The notes beneath the pieces are model-generated. The model worked only from the letters and a program-made list of their open reading frames with translations, had not been told where the DNA came from and made no database searches. From Flavonifractor sp. An112 (GTDB lineage Bacteria > Bacillota > Clostridia > Oscillospirales > Oscillospiraceae), in the NCBI RefSeq assembly GCF_002161085.1, contig NZ_NFLU01000009.1:62001-126000 (forward strand): a DNA stretch of 64,000 bases, given 5' to 3'. A program made the translations under genes and the position numbers. Within the stretch, counting starts at the first letter, position 1, and every line of letters starts with the position of its first letter. Positions 28,049 to 54,343 of this stretch are shown here, one piece after another.

Positions 28049-28963
28049 ATGGCAATCACTGCAAAAGACGTACAGGCCCTGCGCGAGATGACCGGCGTGG
28101 GCATGATGGACTGCAAGAAGGCCCTCACCGAGGCCGAGGGCAACATGGATAAGGCTGTTGAGATCCTGCGCGAGAAGGGTCTGGCTGCTTCTCAGAAGAA
28201 GGCTGGCCGCATCGCCGCCGAGGGTATGGCTTACGCTACCGTGGTGGACGGCATCGGCGTGGTGGTCGAGGTTAACGCCGAGACCGACTTCGTGGGCAAG
28301 AACGAGAAGTTCGTCGACTTCGTGAAGGGTGTTGCCGCTGTTGTGGCCGCCAACAAGCCCGCTGACCTGGACGCTCTGATGGCTCTGCCCTATGGCAACG
28401 GCCGCACCGTGCAGGAGGAGCAGCAGGAGATGGTGCTGGTCATCGGCGAGAACATCAAGGTCCGCCGCTTTGCCTTCTTCACCGATGGTATCTCCGTGCC
28501 CTATGTCCATGCCGGCGGCAAGATCGGCGTGCTGGTGAACCTGGAGACCAGCCTGTCCGCCGAGCAGGTTGAGACCGTTGGTAAGGACGTGGCCATGCAG
28601 ATCGCCGCTCTGAATCCCCGCTTCTGGGATAAGAGCCAGGTGGATCAGGCCACTCTGGACGAGGAGAAGAAGATCCTGCTGGTCCAGATGGAGAACGATC
28701 CCAAGATGGCTTCCAAGCCTGAGAAGGTGAAGGAGGGCATCGTGGCTGGCAAGCTGGGCAAGTTCTATAAGGAGAACTGCCTGCTGCAGCAGGAGTTCGT
28801 GAAGGACAACTCCATGACCGTGGAGCAGTATATCGCTTCCGCTGCCAAGGCTCTGGGCGGCGCTGTGACCTTCAAGAACGCTGTTCGCTTTGAGAAGGGC
28901 GAGGGCATCGAGAAGAAGCAGGAGAACTTCGCTGAGGAGATCGCCAAGCAGCTGGGCAAGTAA
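28049..28963 (+). CDS. tsf: Elongation factor Ts
   Basis: A 304-residue EF-Ts, nucleotide exchange factor for EF-Tu. It starts MAITAKDVQALREMTGVGMM with the classic GMMDCKKALTEAEG, then LAASQKKAGRIAAEGMAYA and VVVEVNAETDFVGKNEKF. ATG at 28049 follows GGAGG by 10 nt. pyrH and frr, its common followers, are not seen; instead the Tn7-like element starts right after the terminator. Confidence 0.97.
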   Translation: MAITAKDVQALREMTGVGMMDCKKALTEAEGNMDKAVEILREKGLAASQKKAGRIAAEGMAYATVVDGIGVVVEVNAETDFVGKNEKFVDFVKGVAAVVAANKPADLDALMALPYGNGRTVQEEQQEMVLVIGENIKVRRFAFFTDGISVPYVHAGGKIGVLVNLETSLSAEQVETVGKDVAMQIAALNPRFWDKSQVDQATLDEEKKILLVQMENDPKMASKPEKVKEGIVAGKLGKFYKENCLLQQEFVKDNSMTVEQYIASAAKALGGAVTFKNAVRFEKGEGIEKKQENFAEEIAKQLGK

Positions 28964-29016
28964 TTGTGTACTTGTCCCCCCGCAAACAAGCACATTGTCC
29001 CTAAATAATGACTCAC

Positions 29017-29057
29017 AAAAGAGTCCGAGGAAATTCGTTTCCCCGGGCTCTTTTTTA
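29017..29057 (+). terminator. tsf terminator
   Basis: Arms AAGAGTCCG-GGAAA / TTTCC-CCGGGCTCTT followed by TTTTTT. It marks the last chromosomal feature before the transposon-like DNA. Confidence 0.85.
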
Positions 29058-29139
29058 TTTATTTTCTGTTTTTAGCCCGGGTTTGGCTTGATTTAGAACT
29101 AATTTAGAATTTTTTGAGAAAGAGATTGGGCGAGCAGCT

Positions 29140-29353
29140 TGTGGTCAAAATGGTTGGACAAACGACCAGGTTGGAGTGGGATGATCACATGGTATCTAAG
29201 GGAAATGGCAATTAACTCAAAAAATTGACAGCGAAATTTGAATTAAATGAAAAATTTGCGGGTAGTATCATCAAATTTTTGATTTAATTCAATTTTTGGA
29301 CGCAAAATTTTGAGCTAATTCCGTGCCATCATCAAAATTTTGAGTTAATTCAA
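29140..29353 (+). repeat. Candidate Tn7-like transposon end with TnsB-site-like repeats
   Basis: Three direct copies of a 20-nt motif: 29271-29290 tcaaatttttgatttaattc, 29302-29321 gcaaaattttgagctaattc and 29332-29351 tcaaaattttgagttaattc, spaced 31 and 30 nt. One shorter inverted copy lies at 29210-29228 and a degenerate one at 29231-29249. This spacing is what TnsB-binding sites in Tn7-like ends look like. TGTGGTC at 29140 could be the tip, but no matching far end was found. Confidence 0.6.
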
Positions 29354-29421: not shown

Positions 29422-29805
29422 ATGGAACGGACGGGAGAGCGCACACGAGACATCCGATTTTACAGTAACAAGAACGGAGATATCGTATGCCTGCACAGTA
29501 AGTGGGCGAGGAATTACGCACGATGGTTGGAGGAGCAAGCGTGGGTGCAGAGTTATCAGGTAGGTTGTCCTCTGGATGCCGACATCATGGGCCGCATATC
29601 ACGGGCGGGCATACGCACGGACTACCTACAGACCGGGTGGGCTACCGACTTTGTCATCCGGTACGCTGATGGACACAAAGGCGTAAGAGAGCTAGTGCAG
29701 CGAGGACAGTTGAAGAAAAAGGCCCATGTAGAGCGCCTGGAGCTATCTCGCAGGTACTGGGCGGCGACCGATACGGAGTGGATGGTGGTGATCGTAGATG
29801 GATAG
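29422..29805 (+). CDS. tnsA: TnsA-like transposase nuclease subunit, apparently active-site degenerate
   Basis: A 127-residue single-domain TnsA, about half the length of Tn7 TnsA and lacking the C-terminal winged helix. The fold is recognisable: SKWARNYARWLEEQAWVQSY, then GWATDFVIRYADGHKGVREL, then HVERLELSRRYW. Family members normally have Glu in the first block, Asp in the middle and a Lys two after the third acid. Here Ala29 replaces the Glu, Asp76 is kept, and Val92 replaces the Lys after Glu90. Its stop overlaps the tnsB start by 8 nt. In Tn7 this subunit nicks the 5' ends, so its loss would give replicative cointegrates. Confidence 0.82.
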   Translation: MERTGERTRDIRFYSNKNGDIVCLHSKWARNYARWLEEQAWVQSYQVGCPLDADIMGRISRAGIRTDYLQTGWATDFVIRYADGHKGVRELVQRGQLKKKAHVERLELSRRYWAATDTEWMVVIVDG

Positions 29806-31516
29806 ACCACTGCGCTTTGTGAAACGATTGGGCGCCATATATCGAGTTTTGCTTGAGACTCCGGCCGGCTGCTGGCTGACTGACTGTAACGGCCCCTCTC
29901 CACCATTTTTTGAGGTCAGCTTGGACAGGTATGAGCGAGTACCAGCACCGAATAGTTGGATGGACGAGCACACTATAACACCGGCTCAAGAAGTCCGCCT
30001 GAGGATGATCCAGCCGATGATGGACTGCGACGACTGCATCTCAGACAAAACCCTGCGCTACAAGATGGCGGCAGAGGCGGCACAGCAGCACCAGACTACG
30101 ACACGCCGCATCCTGCGGCTGTACTACCGGTATCTTGCCACAGGACGACTCACGCAAAAGCGGACACAGCAGGCCAGCAAAAGCAATCAGATGATAGAGC
30201 GGGCAATCCGGCGATACTATTTTGGTGCCAAACGGCTATCCCTAAGATCCGCTTATGAGATGATGCTGCTGGAGGACTATGTGGGACCCGAGGGAGAGAT
30301 GGATAGCGATGCTCCGACATGGTCTCAATTCCGGCACTACTACTATGGACACGGGTTTCATCGTGATCCTCAAAAAATCATTGCCCGGGAAGGCCTTACC
30401 AAATATCAGAGAGACCATCGGCCTGCATGGGGATCCTCTGCCGGATGGCGGTCACAGCCCGGGAGCTATCAGATGGATGCCACACAGGCGGATATCTACC
30501 TGGTGTCCAGGCAGGAACGATCCATCGTGGTGGGCAGGCCGTATATCTACTTGGCGGTAGACACAGCCACCCACCTGATTGCTGGTGTCTATATCGGATT
30601 TTCATGCGATGAGACTGCTGTGATGGCTTGCATTGAGCAGGCCACTATGGATAAGGTAGCATATTGTGCCCGCTATGGAATCGAGATCACTCCGGAGCAA
30701 TGGCCATCTGCTGGGATGCCATCGGAGATCATCACGGATCAGGGGCGTGAGTTTTTTGGTCCCAGAATGTCGGAACTATGCCGCCGGTATGGTCTGGAAG
30801 TACTGACCTTACCGCCATTTCGGCCGGACTGCAAGGGGGCCGTCGAAAAAACGATTGATCTGCTGCAGCAAAGATACAAGCCTATGCTGCGGGGCCGTGG
30901 CGTAATCGAGGATGACGCACAAGAGCGATGGGCTACCGACTACCGCACGCAGGCAACCCTTGACCTTGATGATTTTGCACGGGTTGTAATCCACTCTGTA
31001 CTGTACCTAAACAGCGGGAGACTTGTCGATGGCAAGACTCCAGCAGAAAGATGGACGGAGCTATCACCCCGATTGATGGCGGTGGATCCTCAGGAGCTGC
31101 ACATACAGACGCTGCCACGGGATACCGCCAAGCTGACCCGTAAGGGCCTCCGGATCAATCGTATGTGGTACGCCCCGGATGATGCAGATGGGTTGACCAT
31201 TGGAGACAGCTATACGGTTGCCTATGACCCGGCAGACCTGCGCCGTATCCATATCATCTTGGCTGACTGGATCTGTCCATGTCATGCAATTGGGATTGGC
31301 CAGCCGCTTTCCGAAATTGAATGGGAAAAAGCACATAAAGCAGCCAAGAAGAACAGGGGAGCGGCCCGTGCAAAAGAGACAGCATCAAGTATTGCCGCCA
31401 CCCAGGCCATCCGAGCCATCATTGAGCACGCAGATAGTCACAGGGAGACAATACAGCGAGTCGATGGAGAGCAAATTAAACAGGACAAGCTCACAGAAAG
31501 GGGGCAACTGACATGA
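29798..31516 (+). CDS. tnsB: TnsB-like DDE transposase
   Basis: A 572-residue integrase-fold transposase that cuts and joins the 3' ends. N-terminal helix-turn-helix regions are seen at about residues 85-150, then the catalytic core: Asp227 in SYQMDATQADIYL, Asp314 in IITDQGREFFGPRM, and Glu350 in CKGAVEKTIDLLQQ, giving D-D-35-E spacing. A beta-barrel follows at ERWTELSPRLMAVDP and the C-terminal tail is basic, for contact with TnsC. Start overlaps tnsA and end overlaps tnsC by 4 nt, so the three are one translational unit. Confidence 0.93.
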   Translation: MDRPLRFVKRLGAIYRVLLETPAGCWLTDCNGPSPPFFEVSLDRYERVPAPNSWMDEHTITPAQEVRLRMIQPMMDCDDCISDKTLRYKMAAEAAQQHQTTTRRILRLYYRYLATGRLTQKRTQQASKSNQMIERAIRRYYFGAKRLSLRSAYEMMLLEDYVGPEGEMDSDAPTWSQFRHYYYGHGFHRDPQKIIAREGLTKYQRDHRPAWGSSAGWRSQPGSYQMDATQADIYLVSRQERSIVVGRPYIYLAVDTATHLIAGVYIGFSCDETAVMACIEQATMDKVAYCARYGIEITPEQWPSAGMPSEIITDQGREFFGPRMSELCRRYGLEVLTLPPFRPDCKGAVEKTIDLLQQRYKPMLRGRGVIEDDAQERWATDYRTQATLDLDDFARVVIHSVLYLNSGRLVDGKTPAERWTELSPRLMAVDPQELHIQTLPRDTAKLTRKGLRINRMWYAPDDADGLTIGDSYTVAYDPADLRRIHIILADWICPCHAIGIGQPLSEIEWEKAHKAAKKNRGAARAKETASSIAATQAIRAIIEHADSHRETIQRVDGEQIKQDKLTERGQLT

Positions 31517-32841
31517 GCAAGTATCCAGCTGGCCATGCGGCCAGCGCCATCTATGAGGGCTCATCAGGCAACCCATACCTGGACGCCATGCCCGACATGC
31601 TCTCACCGGAGCAATTTGCCCGGGTCATCGCAAGTTACCCACCTATCCCCCATGATCTGGCTCAGATGTCGCCTGAGGAGCGCCGGGGGCTGCTGCCGTC
31701 TCTGGCATCCATCTATGTGCCGATGCCATACCAGTACGCCATCTATGACACGCTATACCGGGCAATCGCCACGACATACCGTACGGCCGATGTGGTAGAG
31801 TCGACCAGGGCAATCAACGCCTACTACTGCGGCCAGAGCACCGACTATGCCACGCAGGCAGACAGCGGGTCAATCTTAGGGGTTCCAGGGTGCGGCAAGA
31901 CGGCCACCGTGCGCCGATGTCTATCCACGATGCCACAGGTGATCGAGCATGTGGAGTACCAGGGGCAGCCCTTGTTCTGTAAGCAGATACTGTGGCTCCA
32001 TGTTGAATGTCCGAGTGACTGCTCGGTCAAGACGCTTGGATTTGGGATTATGGCCGCACTTGATCGGGCTATCGGCTCAAAATACTTACAATCAACACAG
32101 GGTCTAAGGTCGGCCTCGGCATCTGCAATCTCAGTACAGACAAAAATCCTGCTTACCAACCATCATGTGGGGCTATTGGTAGTCGACGAGATCCAGAATG
32201 CAGTGCTGACCGCCCGTAAAAACCGTCAGGAAAAGCCCCTGCTTAGGTTTTTGGTCGAGCTCACCAACGAGACGATGACCTCAATCTATTTTGTTGGCAC
32301 CCCAATGGCAGAAGAGCTTTTTGTATCCCAGGAGCATCTCAAACGGCGCACCAGAGGTATCCGACTGGCCCCATTTAAACCAGATGGTGCGTACTTGGAG
32401 TTTGTCAGCAGAATCTGGCCATACCAATACACATGGCAATTGGCAGAGCTGACTACCTCGCTTACCAATAAGCTATACGATTGCAGCGGTGGCATACCAG
32501 CCTACATCATCAAGATATTTGGGGAATCACAGGTCCAGGCCCTGCTGCAAGGTCGTAGCTGCATAAATGAAAAAGTCATTCAGCAAGCGGTAGACATTTT
32601 GGCTATCAAGGTGCCCCGGACTTATGCAGCGGGCACCCACATTTCGGACTTTGAAATTGGGGTACAAGCGCCAGAGCCGCCTCCAGAGCAAGAAGAGGTG
32701 CCCAGGAAATACGCAGTCAAAAGAGGCCGTAAGGCAGCACAGAGGGATGATGGAGATTTACTTGTTGCGTACAACAATAAAGTGGATATCCAGGCTCATC
32801 TCAGTGAAAACGGATATCTGGAGGCGGATTATCATGGGTAG
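31513..32841 (+). CDS. tnsC: TnsC-like AAA+ ATPase
   Basis: A 442-residue regulator that links target recognition to the transposase. Walker A is GVPGCGKTATVRR near residue 123, Walker B is VGLLVVDEIQNAV near residue 221, sensor-type SIYFVGTPM follows and an RTRGIRLAP stretch comes next. The start ATG overlaps the tnsB stop. Tn7 TnsC forms filaments on target DNA, and this is expected to do the same with the TniQ protein encoded next. Confidence 0.92.
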   Translation: MSKYPAGHAASAIYEGSSGNPYLDAMPDMLSPEQFARVIASYPPIPHDLAQMSPEERRGLLPSLASIYVPMPYQYAIYDTLYRAIATTYRTADVVESTRAINAYYCGQSTDYATQADSGSILGVPGCGKTATVRRCLSTMPQVIEHVEYQGQPLFCKQILWLHVECPSDCSVKTLGFGIMAALDRAIGSKYLQSTQGLRSASASAISVQTKILLTNHHVGLLVVDEIQNAVLTARKNRQEKPLLRFLVELTNETMTSIYFVGTPMAEELFVSQEHLKRRTRGIRLAPFKPDGAYLEFVSRIWPYQYTWQLAELTTSLTNKLYDCSGGIPAYIIKIFGESQVQALLQGRSCINEKVIQQAVDILAIKVPRTYAAGTHISDFEIGVQAPEPPPEQEEVPRKYAVKRGRKAAQRDDGDLLVAYNNKVDIQAHLSENGYLEADYHG

Positions 32842-32895
32842 CCCAAAGACGCACCGGGGCACTGTTGCACTTGCACATCTGATGGTCTTGCACTG

Positions 32896-34104
32896 ATGCT
32901 GACCTATTTTCCATCCCCATACCCAGACGAGTGGTGGTACTCGGTCCTTTGCCGTTACCATGTGCAATCTGGGCACCCCAAGCACGCAACCACCATCAGT
33001 GAGTTGTACAATGGCCGTCCAATGGTGCATGGCAGGCTTGTCCCAGGTGGTGACTGCACCGCCGTCTTATCCAATTTACCGCCAGGGGTGCTGTCGATCG
33101 ATGATGTACTGGCCAATCATACCTTGCTGCCATACTATACCAGATTCTTTCAAGCGGATAAAAAGCGACAGGTATGGGATGCATTACGGGCTGGCCATGG
33201 ATCAGGAATTACCAGCGTTCGAACGCAGACGCCAGATGGTACGGAGGGGCTCAAATTCTGCCCTCTCTGCTATCGAGTGGACGAGTCGAAGTATGGGGAG
33301 CCATACTGGCACAGGGTCCACCAGATACCATTGATGCCATTATGCCCGACCCATAAGATCCCGCTCGTATCCGTGCCAGTCAAATTCGCACGCCTTTCGG
33401 AACTATTTCTTCCGCTGGCATCTGTTCGCATTCAGGAAGCTGAAAGCGTGATTGAAACATGGATGGAACCGCTGACAGATATGATTACTGCTCTGTTGTG
33501 CGGTAACTATGCGCCAACAATCGGACACAGCAACCTACACACGGCGTTGATCGCACACGGATATGGAGAGGATCGGGTAAGCCGATATCAATCAATCGAT
33601 GTATCAAAGATTCAGCGGGCCGTGCTGGAGTACTATGGGCAGCATATCTACGAGCAATATTTTGGAAAACTGTCCGCCTCCGTGATGGCAAGAATGACAC
33701 GATGGCAGTTATCTTCGCCAGATCGGTATGCACTGCTCGCTGTGATGGTTGGGATGGATGCAGACACTCTATTTGGGCCGGCCATTGAGCCAACCGATCC
33801 ACTGCTGGAGCGGTTACTGCGTTACAAGGCGACCGGCCTTGTCTACGGCAAAAATGACTTGGCTGCAAAGATGGGCATCCAACCCGGGCAGCTGGACTCG
33901 TTGTCGGCAAAGTATCATATAGAGCCCTTTTGGCGGCAGATCCGGCAGGAGCGCAACCGGTGTATCCGGTTGTTGCTAACAGACAATGAGTATGATGTTA
34001 TCGCACGAGCAGCGAAAGAAAACGGCAACACACAGCTTGCTGTGTTTGTAAGATCAGTCATCTTGGAGGTTTTGAAAAACAAGGAGGAATTGTTATGCGA
34101 ATGA
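32896..34104 (+). CDS. tniQ: TniQ/TnsD-family target-selection protein
   Basis: A 402-residue TniQ protein. The N-terminus YFPSPYPDEWWYSVLCRYHVQSG is the TniQ hallmark (pPDElwySwlaRyh). Zinc ligands are seen in LKFCPLCYRVDESKYGEPYWHR and LMPLCPTHKIPL. The rest is helical with a C-terminal helix-turn-helix-like part. Longer TnsD proteins bind a specific attachment site; this may read the site next to tsf, which is inference. Its ATG overlaps the end of a 20-codon frame that starts at 32834 (TGATG), giving coupling in place of a clear ribosome site. Confidence 0.9.
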   Translation: MLTYFPSPYPDEWWYSVLCRYHVQSGHPKHATTISELYNGRPMVHGRLVPGGDCTAVLSNLPPGVLSIDDVLANHTLLPYYTRFFQADKKRQVWDALRAGHGSGITSVRTQTPDGTEGLKFCPLCYRVDESKYGEPYWHRVHQIPLMPLCPTHKIPLVSVPVKFARLSELFLPLASVRIQEAESVIETWMEPLTDMITALLCGNYAPTIGHSNLHTALIAHGYGEDRVSRYQSIDVSKIQRAVLEYYGQHIYEQYFGKLSASVMARMTRWQLSSPDRYALLAVMVGMDADTLFGPAIEPTDPLLERLLRYKATGLVYGKNDLAAKMGIQPGQLDSLSAKYHIEPFWRQIRQERNRCIRLLLTDNEYDVIARAAKENGNTQLAVFVRSVILEVLKNKEELLCE

Positions 34105-34397
34105 AACAGCACCGGCGAATATTAAAGGAAGTATTGGAAACAGACGAAAAAGAACGCGAGCAGGAGATTGAGCGCATGATGCCAACATTGTGCAGTTTAG
34201 TAGATGACGCCACCTATATAACAGGGCTGGAAGATGGCGTAGGTGCATTGATAGCGCTGTACATCCTGTGTACCAGTCACAATATCAATACCGTTGATTA
34301 TTATCAGGATATTAAAACCCGCTTGATGAATCTGATCGATCATCTGCAGGATAATATGCTGCGAAAATTCCCTCCTCAAGGTTCAACGGAGGCCTAA
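34095..34397 (+). CDS. Transposon-borne small protein, paralogue A
   Basis: A 100-residue acidic helical protein with no recognised family. The block GLEDGVGALIALYILCTSHNINTVDYYQDIKTRL is clearly related to the next gene (VEDGAAAIAAMYTLCVDDGLNTVAEYLELKDRL), so the two are tandem paralogues. It overlaps the end of tniQ by 10 nt, which suggests it belongs to the transposition operon. No membrane, Cys pair or catalytic motif seen. Confidence 0.7.
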   Translation: MRMKQHRRILKEVLETDEKEREQEIERMMPTLCSLVDDATYITGLEDGVGALIALYILCTSHNINTVDYYQDIKTRLMNLIDHLQDNMLRKFPPQGSTEA

Positions 34398-34399
34398 GT

Positions 34400-34753
34400 A
34401 TGGACAAGTATCGCAAGATTTTGCAGGTAGCGAGAGAAAAAAGCGAGAAAAAAGATCAGCTGAAAACGGCAGAGGTCATCGCAGAGACTATGTGTCTGTC
34501 GGTCGATGAGAGCCCGCACATGATTGCCGTGGAGGATGGGGCAGCAGCGATTGCCGCTATGTATACCCTGTGCGTAGATGATGGACTCAACACTGTAGCG
34601 GAATATCTTGAACTCAAGGATCGCCTTGATGGACTCCTGGGCGACATGCACGACAAGATGCGGGAGATATACCCGGTACCTGCGCAGAGGGATCCAGGGG
34701 ACAAGTCCATGCCGTGCATTGGCGCCGATGCGGTCCAGGAGGAGTGTATATGA
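34400..34753 (+). CDS. Transposon-borne small protein, paralogue B
   Basis: A 117-residue protein related to the preceding gene and separated from it by 2 nt. Its N-terminal KYRKILQVAREKSEKKDQL and the shared central helix block suggest a helical dimer. The C-terminal 25 residues (after VPAQRDP) are extra. It ends with an ATGA overlap to the next gene. Role unknown; a transposition accessory factor or a cargo regulator are both possible. Confidence 0.7.
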   Translation: MDKYRKILQVAREKSEKKDQLKTAEVIAETMCLSVDESPHMIAVEDGAAAIAAMYTLCVDDGLNTVAEYLELKDRLDGLLGDMHDKMREIYPVPAQRDPGDKSMPCIGADAVQEECI

Positions 34754-35034
34754 TATGGATGGATAGTTACGCCAAGATCCACGCACTTACTTTCAGCTGG
34801 ATTTCCTGCGAGGATGACTTGACTGATTGGACGGATGAGGCCCTATGGCCTCTGATATCCCACGCTGATATCGAGTCCATGATGTGGGCCATGTCTGCGT
34901 TTGTGGCGATTACCTCCAGGCCACCCCCTGCTGGTGTTAACCCTCGTGTCTACCGGCTGGCGTGTAGGATAATTGCCGATAAAATTGAGCAGGCAATCGA
35001 AGCAAAGCTCAAAATGGCAGAGGTGTGTCCATAA
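34750..35034 (+). CDS. Hypothetical small protein, 94 aa
   Basis: Start ATG overlaps the stop of paralogue B (ATGA). The 94-residue product is Trp-rich in the first half (MIWMDSYAKIHALTFSWIS, ALWPLISHADIESMMWAM) and ends in a basic helix. No family recognised. It lies in the same reading-coupled series as the tns genes and the resolvase, so probably an element-specific accessory. Confidence 0.6.
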   Translation: MIWMDSYAKIHALTFSWISCEDDLTDWTDEALWPLISHADIESMMWAMSAFVAITSRPPPAGVNPRVYRLACRIIADKIEQAIEAKLKMAEVCP

Positions 35035-35098
35035 AGCATGTGATTGGCGTTACACACGGGAGGCCCCTATTTGGAGGCCTCCAAGAGGGGGAAATGAG

Positions 35099-35728
35099 GT
35101 GAAATCTGCAACGAAAACGGCAGAGGGGATTATCGTTACACATGGGTATGCCAGATGCAGCACAAATGAGACCCGTCAAGTTATCGACCGACAAGTGAGG
35201 GAACTCAAGGCAGCTGGGGCAACCAGAATATGGATGGAGTATGAGCACGGGGATGCCGAAATCAAAGAGCAGCAGGCTATGATGTGGGATACAGTCCATC
35301 CTGGGGACACAGTAATCATCACAGAGCCATCCCGCCTGTCTCGCTCGGTGCAGCAGTTTTGCTCTATCGTTGAGATAATCAAGTCCAAGCGCATCAGGCT
35401 ACAAATCTTAGGGAGTATCACTATCGACTGTAGAACGACTGAGCCGGACCCGATGACTGTGGCCTTTCTCCAGCTCATAGCTGTCTTTAGCGAGCTTGAA
35501 TTGAGTATGATCCGGGCCAGAGTGCGCTCCGGTGTGGCCAACGCCAGGGCCAAAGGCAAACAGTTGGGCCGCCCGCCCATCACGGTAGAGCGCATCCCAG
35601 ATAGTTTTTTTCGATACTATGTGAAATACCAATGCAAAGAAATCAATGTGACAGAGCTGGCCAGACTGGCACAGGTAAGTCGCCCCACAGTCTACCGATA
35701 TTTGTCCGCCATTCGGGCTAGGAAATAA
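35099..35728 (+). CDS. Serine recombinase (resolvase/invertase family)
   Basis: A 209-residue serine resolvase. The GTG at 35099 is chosen because AGAGGGGG lies just upstream and it leaves the normal N-terminus; the longer frame overlaps the previous gene. Catalytic Ser21 is in HGYARCSTNETRQVIDRQ, then the arginine-bearing SRLSRSVQQFCSIVE, the ELELSMIRARVRSGVANARA core helix and a C-terminal helix-turn-helix (NVTELARLAQVSRPTVYRYL). Small resolvases of this kind split cointegrates made by replicative transposons, which fits the defective-looking TnsA. Confidence 0.92.
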   Translation: MKSATKTAEGIIVTHGYARCSTNETRQVIDRQVRELKAAGATRIWMEYEHGDAEIKEQQAMMWDTVHPGDTVIITEPSRLSRSVQQFCSIVEIIKSKRIRLQILGSITIDCRTTEPDPMTVAFLQLIAVFSELELSMIRARVRSGVANARAKGKQLGRPPITVERIPDSFFRYYVKYQCKEINVTELARLAQVSRPTVYRYLSAIRARK

Positions 35729-35750: not shown

Positions 35751-36074
35751 ATGACGGAATGCTACCGCTATGCTGTCGACACCTACGCGCAGATGACAGA
35801 GGATGAAAAAGCGAAAATCTCCCTGGAGTTGCTATATAACGCCATCTGTTACTATCATGGTGAGGCAGAAGAAATCGTACAAGAGTTGCTGCGCATGGAT
35901 CAGGAAACTCTTAGCAAATTTGAGGCCTCATTAGCTGCAACGAGACAGCAAGTCAAAAAGATGCATCAGGCTGCACTGGCTGCAATGTCTGCCCTGAGAC
36001 AGTCTGTATTTGCGTCCGGAGATGTGGAAGACATCTTATTTTATCGCATAGCCAATAACCTGCCCATTGAATAA
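35751..36074 (+). CDS. Hypothetical small helical protein, 107 aa
   Basis: Preceded by AAGAAGGAAGG. A 107-residue protein predicted to be mostly helix (LLYNAICYYHGEAEEIVQEL, then KFEASLAATRQQVKKMHQAA). No membrane span or metal motif. It follows the resolvase and is read in the same direction, so it is probably cargo of the same element. Family not recognised. Confidence 0.6.
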   Translation: MTECYRYAVDTYAQMTEDEKAKISLELLYNAICYYHGEAEEIVQELLRMDQETLSKFEASLAATRQQVKKMHQAALAAMSALRQSVFASGDVEDILFYRIANNLPIE

Positions 36075-36131
36075 CACTAGGGACTTGCTAGTAATCAGGA
36101 GATATATCACTTGGATAAGGAGGAAATCATT

Positions 36132-36458
36132 ATGAAAAAAGAAGGAAATACTAATCCGACTGTGGATGAAATCCTTGAAGAGATTGAAAATGCCGGACTG
36201 GATGTCCCGAAGGTGCAATGCAGCATCTGCGGCAGGGATAGACCGGCCCATGCTGTATACACATTACCGGAGGTCTGGCGCCATGGGAGACGGCTGGCGC
36301 TATATATGCTGGGCAAGGCGCCCAGGCCGGCGCCGGTGGACGAGGAGGCAATGATCCGCAAATATGGGTACACGGCCCGGGATGTATTTTGCTGTGACTG
36401 CTGGCTGGATCTCATCCTGGATGGTGTGCATAAACACGGAGAGTCAACTGATAAATAG
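36132..36458 (+). CDS. Small zinc-finger-like protein, 108 aa
   Basis: ATG at 36132 has AAGGAGGAAATCATT before it. The 108-residue product has two Cys pairs, CSICGRDR near residue 30 and CCDCW near residue 88, spaced as a zinc-knuckle pair. Between them is an Arg-rich helix (EVWRHGRRLALYMLG). No recognised family. It is the last protein gene before the non-coding zone and is followed by the palindromic terminator-like hairpin at 36491. Confidence 0.6.
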   Translation: MKKEGNTNPTVDEILEEIENAGLDVPKVQCSICGRDRPAHAVYTLPEVWRHGRRLALYMLGKAPRPAPVDEEAMIRKYGYTARDVFCCDCWLDLILDGVHKHGESTDK

Positions 36459-43211: not shown

Positions 43212-45059
43212 TTACAGCCCAAAGATGAACCGAAGTATTCTTTCGCTGGCCCTATCCGTTGCGGCTGCAATATCGGATTTCTTCCAATATGGTTTGTTTT
43301 TATCCTGGTACTGGGAGACCAATGCGCGTGCAAGTGGATATTTGCTATCAATATAGCCTGTTTTATTTTCAAGTTTAGTTGAGACCTTTGTGCGGAACCA
43401 TTCATTTCCGATTGCTCTATTGATTTTTTCTTCTAAAAGTATTTTGTTGCCTAACTTATTTACAAGCCCGGCAAATTCAGCTTCGTTCTCAATCTCAGCA
43501 TCAGCTCTGATCTCCTGAAGATTATTCCCGCTGTGAGGCATGATATGTTCAATATCACATTTTGCTCCAAGTGTAAAATCAGCTTTTGTTTCTTTTGAAA
43601 ACAGGTATTCGTTTAGATATACAAGTGCATTTCCGTCATAATCATGTAGTGCTGCGTCTATTACATTGCTGTCCCAATTAGCACTAATATGTTCACAGAA
43701 ATCGGCTTCAATTTCATCTTCTGAAATCGTTTTGTCTGAGAGCTTAGTCTCTTCTTTAAACAAGAATGTTTTGAAATATTTACTTGAGTACCCCGCATCG
43801 CCAAGTTCAAGAAGCGAAAATAAGCGAATCAGGCAATTAACAATGGGCTCTACATTTTCCGCTGAGATATCTTCCTCATTGAACCTATAAAAATAGCTGG
43901 CCAAAAATAATTTTGAGTTTTCGTTAAATTTTAATAATACCTTTACCTGAGTGTAGTCTGAAACCTGTTTCCATATCTTGCTTAATTTAATCATATCCGC
44001 ACACATTTTAATCGGATCAGAAACCGGAACCTTGTTAATTTCGGTAAAGTACCTCCTTAACCCGGGGGTAGTGACATTGATTGCTCCCGTATCACTAATA
44101 GTTTCGTGATTAACGGTACGAATATAATACATATATTGCATCAAAATAGAGTTAATATCTGCAATACCGATTATTTCCAATTCATTTATAATGTCACCCA
44201 GTTGCCTCCACGAATCTGCAAATTCTTTCTCTCTTCCAATTCTCTCTGCTGCTGCATACAGTTTAGCGGAGATGATATCCGAATCATAAAGAGGTAGCCC
44301 ATCAGAATTGAGAGAGTTAAACATTGTAATGGCTTGCTCAACCTGCCAACTCTTAATTTCAATGACTTCACAATTGTCAGTGATTGCTTTTGCAATATTG
44401 TTCAGTTGGGAATCTGATAGTTCGCTGATTTTGTTGTAGAAAAATTTGAAATTTCTAAAGAAGTTGGTATACCGGTTGTCTTTTTGCTTATATTTAATTT
44501 TGGTAACTCTTGCTTCTGCTGATTCATAATCTGTCACTTGTAGAATCGTTTCAAGTTCAGTCTTGTATTGTTCATTTATTGAAAAATTTTGGAGGATAAT
44601 GGCGCGATGACATATCTCGGCGTCTTTTTCCGAATTAGGGGTGTCCGAAATATCCTCTGTTTCTGCCTTATATAAAATACCCATGATTCTTCTTCTGCGC
44701 TCTTGCAGTCCACGGCGAAGGCTGGCAGAGTCATCATCATTTGAGGTCCGTTCGATTGCGATATTGGTTCTGATCAACAGTGCCTTTAGGAGAAGTAAAA
44801 AAGTTGTTGTCCGCTGCTGCCCGTCAATCAGCCCATATTTCGTATCATTATCCTGACAGTTAATAATGATTGTCCCGAAAAAATATCTGTCCTTGCTTTC
44901 GCTTTCGACAAAATCATTGATGTCTTGCCACAGCTTATCACAATTCTCAATTCCCCATGAGTAGGCGCGTTGATATTCCGGTATGGTAAATACGGTATCC
45001 TCATCAAGTTTTAGGTAATCACCAATTTTCTTTAGCTTGGGTTCTATATTCTTAGCCAT
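43212..45059 (-). CDS. DUF262/DUF1524 protein, GmrSD-like type IV restriction enzyme
   Basis: A 615-residue protein with the two GmrSD parts fused. The DUF262 half has IPEYQRAYSWGIENCDKLWQ and GLIDGQQRTTTFLLLLKAL (QQRTTT near residue 80), thought to bind and hydrolyse nucleotide. The DUF1524 half has an HNH-type nuclease motif CDIEHIMPHSGN near residue 505 and LGNKILLEEKINRAIGN. Such enzymes cut DNA with modified bases. ATG has GGAGGATTTAAG upstream. It lies next to the type III res gene on the same strand but with a gap of about 80 nt, so it may be a separate system in the island. Confidence 0.9.
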   Translation of the reverse strand: MAKNIEPKLKKIGDYLKLDEDTVFTIPEYQRAYSWGIENCDKLWQDINDFVESESKDRYFFGTIIINCQDNDTKYGLIDGQQRTTTFLLLLKALLIRTNIAIERTSNDDDSASLRRGLQERRRRIMGILYKAETEDISDTPNSEKDAEICHRAIILQNFSINEQYKTELETILQVTDYESAEARVTKIKYKQKDNRYTNFFRNFKFFYNKISELSDSQLNNIAKAITDNCEVIEIKSWQVEQAITMFNSLNSDGLPLYDSDIISAKLYAAAERIGREKEFADSWRQLGDIINELEIIGIADINSILMQYMYYIRTVNHETISDTGAINVTTPGLRRYFTEINKVPVSDPIKMCADMIKLSKIWKQVSDYTQVKVLLKFNENSKLFLASYFYRFNEEDISAENVEPIVNCLIRLFSLLELGDAGYSSKYFKTFLFKEETKLSDKTISEDEIEADFCEHISANWDSNVIDAALHDYDGNALVYLNEYLFSKETKADFTLGAKCDIEHIMPHSGNNLQEIRADAEIENEAEFAGLVNKLGNKILLEEKINRAIGNEWFRTKVSTKLENKTGYIDSKYPLARALVSQYQDKNKPYWKKSDIAAATDRASERILRFIFGL

Positions 45060-45141
45060 CTTAAATCCTCCAATACGATGTTGGTGGTAAAGATTACATT
45101 CAATGGTTATTACAGCGGATAGCCTTCCGGTTTCACAAATA

Positions 45142-48100
45142 TTAAGAAACCAGATTCAACAGCTGATCAAAATCCTTTACCACATCATAGGTAATGCTGC
45201 TGTTGCTGATTGCCGCAAAGTGGGCCTTGGCACACTCGATTTTGGCCTCTTCCACGCCGCGCAGCTCCATAGTGTCATTGCTTCCTTTTGTCTCCGCAAC
45301 AAAATAGACATGCTTCACAGTGCCTTCGTGGAAAGCAATCGCCCAGTCGGGGCTATATTTTCCAACCGGCGTAGAGATGAAGAAGGCCTTGGGCAATTTT
45401 ACATAGAGAGCAACCTTTTCATTGATGTCAAGCTGTCCGGCGAACTTGCGCTCGCCATCCGAATCATAGATCAGATAGTCATAGATGCTTCGGTCCACCG
45501 GCATGGCATTCTGCCCCAGTTTTCCCCGCAGCGTGGCAGCAGTAAAGATATCAGTATCGTAGACCGCATCCAGCTTGTTATAGGCGATATGCTGGATAAT
45601 GGCCGTGGCCTTTTCGTTGTTGATAATTTTCCCCGCCTTGAGAATGAACTCCTCCGGGTTGAGGCGGTACATGGCAAACTTCTGCGGAGCCATCCCGGCA
45701 AGGATGGCCGCAACCGTAGCGCGGGTCAGACCGCTTTCCTCCACCAGCTTGCCCACCAGATCGTAGCGCACACTGCCCAGAACAGAATGATCCGCCACTT
45801 CCTGATCCGCTTTCCGCTGCTTGAAGCCTTCTCCCTGGAGCAGCTGATCCTTCGACTGAATCTTCGATTCCTGCTCACCATATTCCTTTTTCACAAAAAT
45901 ACGGGAGACCTCCAGATGACCGTTCAGCTTGTCAATGGCTTTCTGAATAAGATCCTTGGTGTCAAAAGAGACCGTATAGAAGGATTTCTGGTTGATCTTC
46001 TCCCAGAGAGCCAAGAACTTCTTCTTTTTCAGCTTGTCGGGATCCACCTTGGCCTCTACATTATTTCCGTGGGCATCCTCAAGCTCCACAGAGTGGCTGT
46101 CATAAATGGTGGACAGGATGGATACCACGGAAGCGGCGCAGTCCTTGACCTCTTCGGCCACCTGAACGGTGCCGCTGGCTTTGTCGGTGTAGTACTTGTC
46201 CGTCAATTCGCCACGCTTGACATAGCCGTTTCCGATCAAATCCTCGTAGATAGCCTCTGCCAAATCGCGGGTGACCTTGACGGTATCCCCGTTGGCATTG
46301 GTGAGTACCTTGTCCAGGAACAGCTGTACATCCACCTTCTTGGGCCGGTCAGCCAGGGACTCAGCCAGGCCGGATTGTAACGCCTCGGCGAACTTACCGA
46401 AGGCCATATCAGTGACCAGGGTCAGCTTGTTCAGCTCCTGTACCTCGCTGCCCAGTACGCTCTCGTCCATACGCTCACCCTGCTGGTTGACGCACAGGCG
46501 CAAGCCCCGCCCGATTTCCTGACGGCTGCGGATCTCCGACTCGCTCTGGGGCTTCAGGGTGCAGATCTGGAACACATTGGGGTTGTCCCAACCTTCCCGG
46601 AGGGCGGAGTGGGAGAAAATGAACCGTACCGGCTCATCCAGACTGAGCAGCCGCTCCTTGTCCTTCATGATCAGGTCGTAGGCATCGGCGTCATCGGAGG
46701 TCTGGGTTTTGCGATCCACCTTACTCTCCACAAAGCGAGCCTTCTTGCCCTTTTTCTTGTCGATGGAGAAGTAGCCTTGGTGTGTCTCATGGGCGGAGAT
46801 TTTATCCAGATAGCTGAGATAGGCCTCGTCGCCAATCTCCCGCTGGAGCTCGCTTACCACATTTTCATACTCTTCCTCAAACATCCGAGCATACTCGCCG
46901 TTACGGCCATCGTCGTTATCGCCGTCGTACAAGCGGTATTTGGCCACCTCATCGATGAAGAACAGACTGAGTACCTTGATGCCCTTGGGGTAGAGATCCC
47001 GCTCCCGACGGATGTGGGTGCGGATGGTTTCACGGATCTGGACACGCCGCTGGAGGGCGGTCATCTGCTCATTGCCCTGGATCTGTCCGGCGTAGAGTTT
47101 CAGACCATTCAGGAAAGTGACCGAGTTGTCCCGGCCGTCAATGCCGTCAGGCAGGATCACATAGCGGTCGGAGTACTCCTCCAGACCGTTGGACAGGGCA
47201 AAGAGGTCATCACCGCCGCTGACTTTTTTGACCACGGTTTTGGTGCCGGATGCCCCCTTGACCTCGAACCCCAGGCGGGCGGTGGGTGCCTTGTTTTTGT
47301 AGAGATCGATGCCCTCCAGATAGACATAGCTGTTGGTGGCGGTGGAGCCGGTGAGGGTGACACCCAGAGCGGCAATTTTCTTTACCAGGTGTTGATTGTA
47401 GGCATCCATGGCGTCCAGCCGGTACACCATGTTGTACTTTTCTTTGTGGGTGGCAGAGTAGCGCAGGGTAAAAAGAGGATTGAATTTCTTCAGGCTCTCC
47501 TTGGTCTGCTTGCCCTCCACGCTCTGGGGTTCGTCAATAATCAGGATGGGATTGGTCTTTGCGATGATGTCAATGGGCTTGCGGCTGCGGAAGGTATCCA
47601 GCTTTTTGTCAATGATCCGCTGGTTCTTACTGGAGTTAAACGCCTGCATATTGATGATCATCACATTGATGGCACTGTCTGAGGCGAAGCGGTCCACCTC
47701 GGTGAGCCGGTCGGAGGAATAGATAAAGAACCGGATCTTCTTGCCGTACTCCCCTGCAAAGTGCTCCTGGGTGGTCTGGAGAGACTTGTAGACGCCCTCT
47801 CGAATGGCCACCGACGGCACTACGATGATAAACTTGCTCCAGCCATAGCGGGCGTTGAGCTCGTACATGGTTTTGACATAAGTATAGGTCTTGCCGGTGC
47901 CCGTCTCCATCTCAATAGACAGATTGATACCCGGCCCGGCCAAAGTGTCGGAGGGCCTCAGGCCGCCCCGGCGCTGGACAGCGTGCAGGTTGTCCAGAAT
48001 GCGGGCATGGGTCAGCTCCGGCACCAATGGGTGGTTCCGGAAGCCGGTATCCGTCATATCCATGCTCTGCTGGACATTGGTCATATCACCCAGATCCAGA

Positions 48101-48198
48101 CGGTAGGTGGTGGTGCGCATGGGCTGGCCGTTGAATACATCGCAGACTGCTGCAGCTGCCTCCGCCTGAAAGGGCTGGTGTTTGAATTGAAGTTTCAT
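45142..48198 (-). CDS. res: Type III restriction endonuclease subunit Res
   Basis: A 1018-residue helicase-nuclease. It starts with LQFKHQPFQAEAAAAVCDVF. Walker A is IEMETGTGKTYTYVKT near residue 99, the DEAD-type box is ILIIDEPQSVEG near residue 221, SATHKEK is motif III and SEIRSRQEIGRGLRL is motif VI. The C-terminal nuclease has a PD-(D/E)xK core: SPDWAIAFHE then VYFVAETKGS. It translocates on DNA and cuts when two sites face each other, with the Mod subunit. The HEPN gene separates it from mod. GC-rich throughout. Confidence 0.94.
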   Translation of the reverse strand: MKLQFKHQPFQAEAAAAVCDVFNGQPMRTTTYRLDLGDMTNVQQSMDMTDTGFRNHPLVPELTHARILDNLHAVQRRGGLRPSDTLAGPGINLSIEMETGTGKTYTYVKTMYELNARYGWSKFIIVVPSVAIREGVYKSLQTTQEHFAGEYGKKIRFFIYSSDRLTEVDRFASDSAINVMIINMQAFNSSKNQRIIDKKLDTFRSRKPIDIIAKTNPILIIDEPQSVEGKQTKESLKKFNPLFTLRYSATHKEKYNMVYRLDAMDAYNQHLVKKIAALGVTLTGSTATNSYVYLEGIDLYKNKAPTARLGFEVKGASGTKTVVKKVSGGDDLFALSNGLEEYSDRYVILPDGIDGRDNSVTFLNGLKLYAGQIQGNEQMTALQRRVQIRETIRTHIRRERDLYPKGIKVLSLFFIDEVAKYRLYDGDNDDGRNGEYARMFEEEYENVVSELQREIGDEAYLSYLDKISAHETHQGYFSIDKKKGKKARFVESKVDRKTQTSDDADAYDLIMKDKERLLSLDEPVRFIFSHSALREGWDNPNVFQICTLKPQSESEIRSRQEIGRGLRLCVNQQGERMDESVLGSEVQELNKLTLVTDMAFGKFAEALQSGLAESLADRPKKVDVQLFLDKVLTNANGDTVKVTRDLAEAIYEDLIGNGYVKRGELTDKYYTDKASGTVQVAEEVKDCAASVVSILSTIYDSHSVELEDAHGNNVEAKVDPDKLKKKKFLALWEKINQKSFYTVSFDTKDLIQKAIDKLNGHLEVSRIFVKKEYGEQESKIQSKDQLLQGEGFKQRKADQEVADHSVLGSVRYDLVGKLVEESGLTRATVAAILAGMAPQKFAMYRLNPEEFILKAGKIINNEKATAIIQHIAYNKLDAVYDTDIFTAATLRGKLGQNAMPVDRSIYDYLIYDSDGERKFAGQLDINEKVALYVKLPKAFFISTPVGKYSPDWAIAFHEGTVKHVYFVAETKGSNDTMELRGVEEAKIECAKAHFAAISNSSITYDVVKDFDQLLNLVS

Positions 48199-48210
48199 GC
48201 TTTTTCACCA

Positions 48211-48795
48211 TCAACTTTGGTTTTTAAGTATGTCATCGTTGCGATACAGACTAACAATCACAGACTTGAATGCAGAAAGCATGGCATTTTCTACATTGCT
48301 TTCATCATAAGTACCCGGGAGAACTATTCCACTAATAGGGAATTCAATCTCGTTGAGCCACCACTTATCGAGTTTTCTATACAATTCTAATAGCTTGAAA
48401 AACCATTGAATATTCTCCAGGGGAACGCCTTCAATGATAAGGCGCGGCATTTCATGCGCATAGGTATTTCTAATAGATTTGATTTGTAAAAAATCAGAAT
48501 AATCTTGAGCACTCATAGCTCCTTTGTCTTGCAACCATAACATGGTAGCCTTTAGTGCATCTTTGTTTCCGTTTTGATCAATCACTCGGTTTTTGATTTT
48601 TTCGCGATACAGCGCAGTCTCTCCGTAATTTAGTTTTCCATCTTTAATACCGAGATCACATAGGAAGGCCTTTACATTCTCTATAAATGTTGCGGTAAAA
48701 TTTTCGTATAAGGCAATATAGAGGGCCATAAAGGTAAGATGATTTTGAATGGTGTCTTTATCAGAAATGTTCTGTAAAAACTCATTTTTCTCCAT
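48211..48795 (-). CDS. HEPN-like protein between mod and res
   Basis: A 194-residue protein. ATG at 48795 shares its first base with the mod stop (TGATG), so it is coupled to mod. The HEPN RNase signature R-x4-H is seen as Arg109-NTYA-His114 in SIRNTYAHEMPRL, with helical surroundings. It is AT-rich while res downstream is GC-rich, so it was probably added to an older mod-res pair. It could be an abortive-infection RNase triggered by the R-M complex; this is inference. I do not know a named family for it. Confidence 0.75.
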   Translation of the reverse strand: MEKNEFLQNISDKDTIQNHLTFMALYIALYENFTATFIENVKAFLCDLGIKDGKLNYGETALYREKIKNRVIDQNGNKDALKATMLWLQDKGAMSAQDYSDFLQIKSIRNTYAHEMPRLIIEGVPLENIQWFFKLLELYRKLDKWWLNEIEFPISGIVLPGTYDESNVENAMLSAFKSVIVSLYRNDDILKNQS

Positions 48796-50813
48796 CAAAT
48801 CACCTTCACCTTAGTATCCGGGGAGAGGTTTTTGAAGATCTCCGTCACATTGATCTTGGCGTCGTCGGAGGCGAAGGCGCTGTCCCGGAAGACGGCGCGG
48901 AGGGGCTGCTGCTTTGCCATATACTCCACCACGGAGCGGGGCACATTGGGGCTGAAGCAGGCCATGAGGGCGCCGTTGTCCACATTGTGGACGGTGCAGC
49001 CGTCCAGGTCGGTGCTGGTGTGGGGGAGGTGGATCTCCACGCCCCAGTCCAGCAGGCAGGCGTAGAGCAGATCCATATCAGTACGGTCGTCCTTGATGTT
49101 GGACACGAGATTGAAGATGGACTGCTGATCCAGCTCCTCCGGCTGGTAGTACACATCTTTCATGTTACTGCTGTCCACCCGGAAGACCCGGAAACCAATG
49201 TCCAGATCCTGTGTGCCCAGGGGGTTGTCCTCTTTGATTTTGTCCCCGGCCCGGCGGATGCGCTCCTTACCAATATCACATAGTGTTTTATATTGCGGAG
49301 ATGCGCTTTCCTCTGGCACCTGAACAAGAATAAACTTTCTGTGTCCACCATCCTGCGCATTTTTGCTCATGACTGCATGGGCAGTGGTAGCAGAACCAGA
49401 GAAAAAATCCATAATAATGCCGTCTTTGTCAGTTGAAATGGTAAGTATGCGCTCTATCAACCGGGCTGGTTTTGGTGTGTCAAAGACAGCCACGCCATCA
49501 AACATCACTTTAAGCAAGCGAGATGCTTCATCTGTGTGTCCTGTTTCGCTATATGGCCAAAGATTTGTAACAGGCCGCCCTCCCATCTGCTGTAAATAAG
49601 CCTTGCGGCTTAATGCACCTGTCCCATTTCGAGAAAAGAAGAATTCAGGGAGCGGACCTTTCTGATATATCTCTGTCGCTTTTTGTCGAGCACGAATAGG
49701 ATCTTCCTTCAGAACAATTGCCATTACATCTTTCCGAACATCATCCACTGACACATTGCATACTTGGGCGCGGGCCTCATAGTCTTTGATGTCTTTTAAT
49801 TCATACTCGCACCATTTACACATCGCTTCCAGCATCTGTTCTTGACCCAAACTCCAATGTCGTCCTTGTGGCGGATAATTTAATTCACCCGTAATTGGAT
49901 TTTGGATTGCGTAGACCATCCCTTGATGGGCTATGGAATCTGGTGCACTGGCAACAATATTTCTCCAGTCGCCTTTGGGGTCATTATCAGGATTCTTATA
50001 CTTTGAATCCATAGATTCAGTGCGCTCAAGCTTTCGAGGCTGCCAATCCACACTCCTGCTATAAACTAAAATGTGTTCGACTTCTGCCGGAATTCCTTTG
50101 GCATCGTTGCGCATAGAATAAGTCCTCTGCCACGAAATGTTAGCAACAAAGTTGCTTTCACCAAAGATCTCACCACATATATTCAGAAGATTGGCGCATT
50201 CATTATCATCAATTGAAATAAAAATAACGCCGTCATCAGTCAGTAGATTGCGTGCCAGTGCCAATCTGGAATACATCATACTGCACCAATCAGAATGAAA
50301 ACGGCCATTACTTTCCGTGTTCTCAAACATCTGCTTTTCATCTTCATCGTACATTCCCATCTGCTCGTTCTCTTCCTGCTGGGAGCGCTGGAACTTATCC
50401 CGATAGATGAAGTCGTGGCCGGTGTTGTAGGGCGGGTCGATGTAGATCATCTTCACCTTGCCCAGATAGCTCTCCTGGAGGATTTTCAGCACCTCCAGGT
50501 TGTCCCCCTCGATATAGAGGTTCTGGGTGGTATCCCAGTCCCGGCTGTCCTCCTTCACCGGACGCAGGGTCTTGGTAATGGGACGGGCGGCCTCGGCCTT
50601 GGCGGCATTCTTACCCACCCAGGTGAACTCATAGCACTCGTTGCCGTCTAACACATCCCGGCTGAGCAGCTGCTTGAGTACTTTAAAATTGATACCCTTC
50701 CGGATTTGTCCGTCCTCGCCCTGCATTTCCGTAATAGCAGAAGGAAAAAGCGCCCCGATTTTTTCGATATTCCCGGCCACCATATCCGGGGTTTCAAATT
50801 TCATTTTGTCCAT
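48795..50813 (-). CDS. mod: Type III DNA methyltransferase subunit Mod
   Basis: A 672-residue beta-class N6-adenine methyltransferase. Motif IV IYIDPPYNTGHDFIYRDKF is near residue 125, then SDWCSMMYSRLALARNLLTDDG, and motif I FFSGSATTAHAVMS near residue 471. The region between should hold the recognition domain. DNA from about 49,268 to 50,335 is AT-rich inside GC-rich ends, so the recognition part was probably exchanged. Preceded by GGAGGAAATCC overlapping the end of the unknown gene at 50,814, so cotranscribed. Confidence 0.94.
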   Translation of the reverse strand: MDKMKFETPDMVAGNIEKIGALFPSAITEMQGEDGQIRKGINFKVLKQLLSRDVLDGNECYEFTWVGKNAAKAEAARPITKTLRPVKEDSRDWDTTQNLYIEGDNLEVLKILQESYLGKVKMIYIDPPYNTGHDFIYRDKFQRSQQEENEQMGMYDEDEKQMFENTESNGRFHSDWCSMMYSRLALARNLLTDDGVIFISIDDNECANLLNICGEIFGESNFVANISWQRTYSMRNDAKGIPAEVEHILVYSRSVDWQPRKLERTESMDSKYKNPDNDPKGDWRNIVASAPDSIAHQGMVYAIQNPITGELNYPPQGRHWSLGQEQMLEAMCKWCEYELKDIKDYEARAQVCNVSVDDVRKDVMAIVLKEDPIRARQKATEIYQKGPLPEFFFSRNGTGALSRKAYLQQMGGRPVTNLWPYSETGHTDEASRLLKVMFDGVAVFDTPKPARLIERILTISTDKDGIIMDFFSGSATTAHAVMSKNAQDGGHRKFILVQVPEESASPQYKTLCDIGKERIRRAGDKIKEDNPLGTQDLDIGFRVFRVDSSNMKDVYYQPEELDQQSIFNLVSNIKDDRTDMDLLYACLLDWGVEIHLPHTSTDLDGCTVHNVDNGALMACFSPNVPRSVVEYMAKQQPLRAVFRDSAFASDDAKINVTEIFKNLSPDTKVKVI

Positions 50814-51671: not shown

Positions 51672-51675
51672 ATAA

Positions 51676-51928
51676 ATCTCCAATTTCTTTTTCTATGTGA
51701 ATAAGTTCCCGTCGAATCTCCATTTGCCTGCTGAGTTGCTTTTCCTTTTTCATCTTCGCTTTCAGCTGGGAGATCTGTTTTTCCGGCTTCTCCCGCTGCT
51801 AGGCGTGTTCTACAGCCTCTTTCAGGCTCTCGCCCTGGGGAGTGGCAATGGCGCCCCCGGCAATTTGGCGGACGATACTTTCATAGAGGGCATCCATATC
51901 CAGGTTGGTCAAGTTCAGGGACAGACTT
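51676..51928 (-). pseudogene. Decayed copy 1 of the DUF4391 gene 3' end
   Basis: Minus-strand translation matches the end of the intact gene at 53,674 almost line by line: LDMDALYESIVRQIAGGAI, PQGESLKEAVEHA, then a stop (51799-51801), then KQISQLKAKMKKEKQLSRQM. It is a fragment left by duplication, cut off at its 5' side. Confidence 0.85.
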
Positions 51929-51949
51929 GCGGCTGCATATGCTCCTCAT

Positions 51950-52621: not shown

Positions 52622-52641
52622 TGCATTTCCTCCAATCCCAT

Positions 52642-52712: not shown

Positions 52713-52774
52713 TGATATGCCTCCCTTATAATTCATACCAAAAGGTTTAGCCAGCAACCGATTAGTGTTATATT

Positions 52775-53623: not shown

Positions 53624-53673
53624 GATATTCCCCCAGAAACAACATCGTAACACTATATCATAGACGCAATCAT

Positions 53674-54330: not shown

Positions 54331-54343
54331 AGCACTACCTCCA

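Follow-up and report, generated by a model that had tools for sequence, protein, structure and literature searches.

A Tn7-like element flanked by direct copies of a short mini-transposon and encoding a TnsA without catalytic residues in Flavonifractor sp. An112

Results

The Tn7-like element downstream of tsf has the structure R-X-R

The window analyzed here is a stretch of 64,000 nucleotides from Flavonifractor sp. An112 (contig NZ_NFLU01000009.1, positions 62,001 to 126,000; genome G000, contig C41 in our lists). It harbors a Tn7-like element, inserted directly after the stop codon of tsf, in which a short sequence, R, stands in direct repeat on either side of a body, X. The features on which the following analysis is based are listed below in window coordinates; the right copy of R lies on the same contig, beyond the window.

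28049-28963, + strand: tsf, the host target gene (NCBIfam TIGR00116, E 2.8e-83), with the insertion directly after its stop codon
28962-28966, + strand: target duplication AATTG; the right copy in this genome reads ATTG
28967-29189, + strand: left R, a 223-bp mini-transposon starting TGTAC and ending ATCACA, delimited by homology and by comparison with an empty site and a solo R
29020-29055, + strand: terminator-like hairpin and T-run inside R, predicted from sequence and folding
29190-29201, + strand: left edge of X, TGGTATCTAAGG, matching the right edge, CCTTAGGTACCA (C41:130659-130670), as an inverted repeat at 11 of 12 positions
29422-29805, + strand: TnsA-like protein of 127 aa, without equivalents of E63, K132 and E149 of Tn7 TnsA and without the C-terminal domain
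29798-31516, + strand: TnsB/TniA DDE transposase with D227, D314 and E350
31513-32841, + strand: TnsC/TniB AAA ATPase (AAA_22, E 2.7e-14; TniB, E 1.4e-10)
32896-34104, + strand: TniQ, the presumed target selector (PF06527, E 1.5e-20)
C41:130671-130892 (window coordinates 68671-68892): right R, a direct copy 88% identical to the left R

The order in the window genome is tsf, AATTG, R, X, R, ATTG. X extends over 39,481 bp, from TGGTATCTAAGG (29190) to CCTTAGGTACCA (C41:130670), and contains all of the tns genes, a serine recombinase gene and the cargo, whereas R contains no tns genes. R has the form of a mini Tn7-like transposon with TG...CA termini. In genome G022 the site is empty and tsf continues without R (AAGTAATTGCATCAG), and G182 carries a solo R with an exact target duplication (AATTG-R-AATTG). 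Thus, R is itself an insertion, starting at TGTAC and ending at CACA, that is flanked by a 5-bp target duplication. A dispersed repeat was considered and rejected, as the genome contains just two copies of R, both flanking X (E up to 0.001).

R-X-R in other genomes

R-X-R with both ends readable was found in eight genomes, at tsf (G000, G118, G246, G089 and G214), nrdR (G271), gatB (G366) and an M18 aminopeptidase gene (G024), and in five of these (G000, G118, G271, G024 and G366) both ends lie on a single contig. The outer 5-bp duplications are exact in six of the eight (AATTG in G118, G246 and G089, TGAGC in G271, ATTCC in G024 and GCCGA in G366). R is 222-236 bp long, with the exception of G366 (425 bp) and G024 (416/417 bp). 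The two copies are identical in half of the elements, namely in G089 (225 bp), G214 (224 bp), G271 (236 bp) and G366 (425 bp), and the identical pairs of G271 and G366 each lie on one contig, around an X of 38 and 54 kb (38,431 bp and about 53,950 bp, respectively); X of G024 measures about 6.9 kb. Both termini are present in both copies of R in all eight elements, as would be expected from duplication of the whole R. A ninth genome, G343, has an element at mgsA and was excluded from the eight because its second, right R runs into the contig end. Members at era are visible on their left side only (era confirmed for L031).

The edges of X next to R carry an inverted repeat in each of the seven elements compared, with 7 to 11 matches in 12 positions. 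Folding of four R types predicted a hairpin in each, namely in those of the window, G214, G271 and G024. The two ends of R form clear inverted repeats in G271 and in both copies of G024 (0/500 shuffles). In G024 the first three bases of R recreate the stop codon of the target gene, which is hence left whole. Eleven other nrdR sites of the genus were read (16 other genomes had a match) and none contained R.

Direct repeats were sought by self-comparison in sets of 23, 11 and 5 stretches, several of which represent the same element twice. An R-type repeat was returned for L046/G024 (one element), G343_C70 and G366, and a partial one for G436. The repeats in L038/G334 (one element) were not of the R type and the other stretches gave none; in most of these the absence is uninformative because X runs off the contig. 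The other R pairs were found by homology to the R of the window and to an ERCC4-like gene at the far end of X (see below).

An X-R-X junction was present in L036, a 3,913-bp contig of a metagenome-assembled genome (MAG), which contains the far-end gene of X, a 236-bp R, and then the repeat array and tnsA with which X begins. Judged from its sequence, this order fits a circle or a head-to-tail tandem.

Further R-like sequences were observed. R-like copies without a visible X, following tsf or arranged in tandem, occur in G305, G311 and G308 (L064, L070 and L072); these copies are diverged, with short target duplications apparently between them. In L160 (G436:C33, about 443,677-443,815) a 139-bp partial R-like repeat is preceded by a duplicate of the upstream target gene's 3' end; this element was not counted among the eight. 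In L065, L066, L067 and L068 the 3' end of tsf recurs, as one or more copies of 40-43 bp, some 200-400 bp downstream of the gene, and the genomes concerned (G022, G310, G304 and G271) have no R at the tsf site.

TnsA relatives lack catalytic residues

A scan of the genome collection returned 28 loci encoding relatives of the window TnsA. Twenty-two of these were aligned with the window sequence (n = 23), L023, L024, L028, L033, L044 and L047 being omitted for their closeness to others. At the positions equivalent to E63, D114, Q130 and K132 of Tn7, the window protein has A29, D76, E90 and V92. The alignment thus agrees with the first-pass annotation, a reading of the DNA made from its letters, which had described a 127-residue TnsA with Ala29 and Val92 in catalytic columns and Asp76 and Glu90 kept. 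No sequence has Lys at column 92 (V in 14, I in 6, and A, T and S in one each). Column 29 is A in 18 sequences, E in 3 and Q in 2, and the column of E149 is Ser throughout (23/23). D76, E90, E104, E107 and S109 are invariant. All 23 proteins match PF08722 (E up to 0.1), and PF08721 is listed for none of them. A longer window protein was considered, as the frame is open for 153 codons; however, the first ATG, GTG or TTG is the one at 29422.

Longer TnsAs exist in the same bacterial family (G063, 263 aa; G035, 254 aa). By eye, both keep the equivalents of E63, D114, K132 and E149 and the C-terminal region, with T at the Q130 column. On the alignment, loss of catalytic residues is a conserved trait of the TnsAs studied here and not a single broken gene. 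TnsB has retained its triad, as had also been annotated, and D227, D314 and E350 are invariant in all 16 sequences compared. It is plausible that TnsA, with its fold kept but its catalytic residues and C-terminal domain lost, has been retained as a structural adaptor. A second TnsA, 40% identical and with its own TnsB, is encoded in the same genome (G000:C22:337-717, L076).

Other features of X

The remaining features of X, including open reading frames (ORFs) of small size, are the following.

29209-29351, no strand: repeat array upstream of tnsA, five repeats of ~17-22 bp at ~31 bp spacing, in both orientations
34095-35034, + strand: three small ORFs (34095-34397, 34400-34753 and 34714-35034) with homologues in L023, L025 and L027
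35099-35728, + strand: small serine recombinase of the resolvase/invertase family, 209 aa (PF00239, E 2.2e-24)
35751-36458, + strand: two small ORFs (35751-36074 and 36111-36458) with homologues in L023, L025 and L027
43212-59882, - strand: defence-like cargo, by PADLOC matches
C41:129595-130500 (window coordinates 67595-68500, outside the window; also L059:3596-4501), - strand: XPF/ERCC4-like gene, 302 aa, directed inwards from the far end of X

Of the 28 other loci, many of them truncated, 9 encode a homologue of the window recombinase; that of G271 is 73% identical. No homologue was recognizable in G118, or in G024 and G366, where X is complete. Since R is the only duplicated sequence, it is R that would need to contain a res site. 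Repeat searches near the recombinase gene returned short repeats and palindromes only, and no res site was demonstrated. The earlier proposal that the element carries this resolvase to finish a cointegrate is therefore not demonstrated: in two elements with a complete X no homologue was recognizable, and only R is duplicated.

Homologues of the ERCC4-like gene occur in G118, G246, G271, G100/L036 and G342. The gene is present in 7 of 300 genomes of the family, all seven being among the 17 with a TnsA match, and was matched in 3 of the 19 genomes behind the named loci. G024 and G366, each with a complete X, gave no match (E up to 0.01). Pfam ERCC4 was matched below the cut-off by two of three proteins (E 0.0011 and 0.0021) and not by the third, and a profile of the far-end protein retrieved the XPF endonuclease 2bgw (E 0.0017). 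GDY, DRK and LEL are invariant in all six ERCC4-like proteins; the ERCC4/XPF catalytic motif is of the GDx(n)ERK type.

Ten cargo proteins were submitted to PADLOC and five were matched (HEC-06-like, a type III restriction enzyme and methyltransferase, a Snf2-type helicase and PDC-S01); in this comparison the remaining ORFs of 43212-59882 had no match. The small ORFs 34095-34397 and 34400-34753 resemble each other (phmmer cross-matches). The array upstream of tnsA comprises five matches with at most 3 mismatches, against 0.13 expected, and from its sequence possibly represents TnsB sites or an operator. As a transposon end it was rejected, for there is no second array in the window and no target duplication at its borders. 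Related motif arrays were seen by eye upstream of tnsA in L027, L037, L038, L036 and G271.

Discussion

Probable insertion of a circle as a cointegrate

We consider it reasonably probable that R-X-R arises when a donor circle, consisting of X and one R, inserts as a cointegrate through TnsB alone, leaving target-R-X-R-target. The mobile donor would be a circle of X (tnsA, tnsB, tnsC, tniQ and cargo) and a single R bearing both transposon ends. TniQ would select the 3' end of a conserved gene, here tsf, and TnsB would nick the 3' ends of R and join them to target positions staggered by 5 bp. With TnsA catalytically dead, the 5' strands would stay attached to X, and replication through R would then yield a stable cointegrate. 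If the two copies of R recombine, through host RecA or, in elements that have it, the serine recombinase, the circle would be set free again and a solo R would stay behind. Were TnsA active, it would excise the 223-bp R alone and the genes would be lost, which may be the reason why catalysis was lost and the fold kept. Since the flank of R in the donor would be constant in a circle, the inverted repeat at the edges of X could be a site for TnsA or TnsB.

Identical direct copies flanking the donor, together with an outer duplication, are found on single contigs in G271 and G366. The first-pass annotation had proposed a shift to cointegrate transposition. Two copies of R around the donor X, with 5-bp duplications outside them, speak for that part of the proposal; however, the duplicated unit is a mini-element of 222-425 bp without tns genes.

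Several observations weigh against this explanation. The copies of R are not identical in G024 and G246 (90%), G000 (88%) and G118 (86%), and the pairs of G000, G118 and G246 look mosaic. In G246, G089 and G214, which include two of the four identical pairs, the ends come from different contigs and were assigned to one element by inference. The right duplication of G000 is one base short (AATTG/ATTG) and that of G214 differs by one base (AATTG/AATTT). Left and right copies taken from different tsf elements are 78-97% identical, and the likeness within an element is not significant for the five tsf elements (13/120 permutations reach the observed mean), because three of the five are mosaics. 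X of G118 keeps tnsA and a 151-residue tnsB remnant; homologues of tnsC, tniQ and the recombinase were not found there. The two ends of R form weak inverted repeats in G214 (28/500 shuffles) and in the left copy of G000 (93/500), and the array upstream of tnsA carries another motif with no obvious match to the ends of R. As for mobility, L036, a 3.9-kb MAG contig, holds the sole X-R-X junction among the loci fetched. One scan of viral contigs gave no relative, and no TnsB of >60% identity was found on plasmids or in phages (weakly matching records: 3913 and 4). Recombination with resident copies of R is likely in the mosaic tsf elements and may account for the copy in the window.

Other explanations for R-X-R

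That R-X-R moves as one composite unit by its outermost ends, either by cut-and-paste or replicatively, with the inner ends as passengers, is in our view unlikely. Gene conversion would then keep the copies of R alike, and homologous recombination would give rise to solo R and X-R-X. The outermost ends are indeed a proper left and right pair with a target duplication, the older R pairs look recombinant, and the eukaryotic KolobokP transposons have the same architecture and leave solo repeats (PMC9587614; this and the other papers are cited for the portions available to us). Yet the inner ends of such a unit should decay, while both termini are found in both copies of R in 8/8 elements, and no reason is offered for the loss of TnsA catalysis. 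A different course of events, in which the circle recombines into an R already present at tsf, R serving as an attachment site for homologous, serine recombinase-mediated or IS26-like targeted recombination, would agree with the blocks swapped between genomes by which left and right R differ in G000 and G118, and with the solo or tandem copies in the same genus. Such a process may still account for the copy in this window. We regard it as a decidedly improbable general explanation, as it leaves unexplained how R arrived with a target duplication of its own, and how fresh identical pairs came to lie at nrdR (G271) and gatB (G366) when 11 other nrdR sites have no R.

The remaining two explanations concern the nuclease. 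The ERCC4-like protein could replace TnsA and cut the 5' strands, so that transposition would still be cut-and-paste. Its gene adjoins the right end in several members, its GDY, DRK and LEL motifs are invariant (6/6), and all seven of the 300 family genomes that carry it also encode such a TnsA. However, neither G024 nor G366 has a homologue in its complete X at E up to 0.01, and cutting at the ends of R would free R alone; we thus think a replacement very improbable. Scarcely credible is a TnsA whose catalytic residues have migrated and which still acts as a nuclease, R-X-R being unrelated. The invariant D76 and E90 (23/23) might allow metal binding to persist, and 3 of the 23 sequences have Glu at column 29, but Lys is lost and the E149 column is Ser in every sequence, and the sole invariant Lys, K17, aligns with a Lys of Tn7 TnsA that is distant from K132 in sequence.

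Returning to the insertion of a circle as a cointegrate, we suggest more tentatively that these elements could form an "inside-out" Tn7-like lineage. The transposon ends would be fused in R, the tns genes would lie in the circle outside R, and TnsA would have been disarmed so that R stays with the genes. Such elements would normally be integrated as a cointegrate, every insertion would regenerate R as retrotransposons do their long terminal repeats (LTRs), and the dead TnsA may read the X flank sequence-specifically.

Comparison with known systems

The element shares with Tn7 and Tn7-like elements the gene order tnsA, tnsB, tnsC, tniQ, a DDE TnsB, a 5-bp duplication, insertion at the 3' end of a conserved gene and defence-like cargo. 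A DDE TnsB, a TnsC ATPase and TniQ are all encoded, and insertion took place just downstream of tsf, nrdR, gatB, mgsA and an M18 aminopeptidase gene, and of era as far as the left side is concerned. Tn7 is bounded by a single left and a single right end carrying TnsB sites, whereas two complete R mini-elements in direct repeat are found here, and the TnsA of cut-and-paste Tn7 has the catalytic residues and the C-terminal domain that are both missing from the present protein. Members of the Tn5053/Tn402 family have no tnsA gene and carry a resolvase with its own res site. Likeness to these and to TnsA-less Tn7-like clades (PMC8649781) lies in a cointegrate pathway inferred from absent TnsA function and in a serine recombinase in some members; in contrast to Tn5053/Tn402, a dead tnsA is kept here, and the cointegrate is seemingly the resident form.

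Translocatable units and pseudo-compound transposons of IS26 likewise have direct repeats around a body and form cointegrates (PMC6952201, PMC7986276), and the circular translocatable unit (mentioned in PMC9587614) resembles the proposed circular donor. The IS26 transposase is encoded within the repeated unit, however, whereas tns genes are absent from R (222-425 bp), X being the part that carries the Tn7-like transposase genes. The closest architecture we found in print is that of KolobokP, composite-like DNA transposons of animals with terminal direct repeats that each have inverted ends of their own, solo repeats, a DDE transposase in the internal part and an added nuclease gene (PMC9587614). 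KolobokP differs in being eukaryotic, in its Kolobok superfamily transposase, in duplications of 3-5 bp depending on the family and in being described there without TniQ gene-end targeting (PMC9587614). Experimentally, the TnsA active-site mutant D90A of a Vibrio cholerae CRISPR transposon gave cointegrates (PMC8188705), and Benler et al. (2021) inferred replicative transposition for lineages that lack tnsA and have a recombinase (PMC8649781). The present element seems different from these cases in that its duplicated unit has no tns genes and the cointegrate is the resident form. The terms tsf, nrdR and ERCC4 are absent from PMC8649781, as are tsf, resolvase and cointegrate from PMC10293859, although "co-integrate" is used in the latter. 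In the portions available to us of the literature on dead TnsA, Tn7-like direct repeats, tsf sites and Oscillospiraceae elements, no publication describing an R-X-R element was recognized.

Implications

To our knowledge, the switch of Tn7-type machines from cut-and-paste to cointegrate formation has so far been known where TnsA was mutated by design or where a lineage has lost tnsA. If the explanation favoured here is true, these elements would represent a natural and conserved switch of this kind, by which whole circles are inserted at selected gene ends while the donor suffers no double-strand break, and the existence of a group of TnsAs that lack catalytic residues would be explained. Among bacteria, the elements would correspond to the animal DNA transposons with terminal direct repeats, and surveys that expect one left and one right end would mis-draw them.

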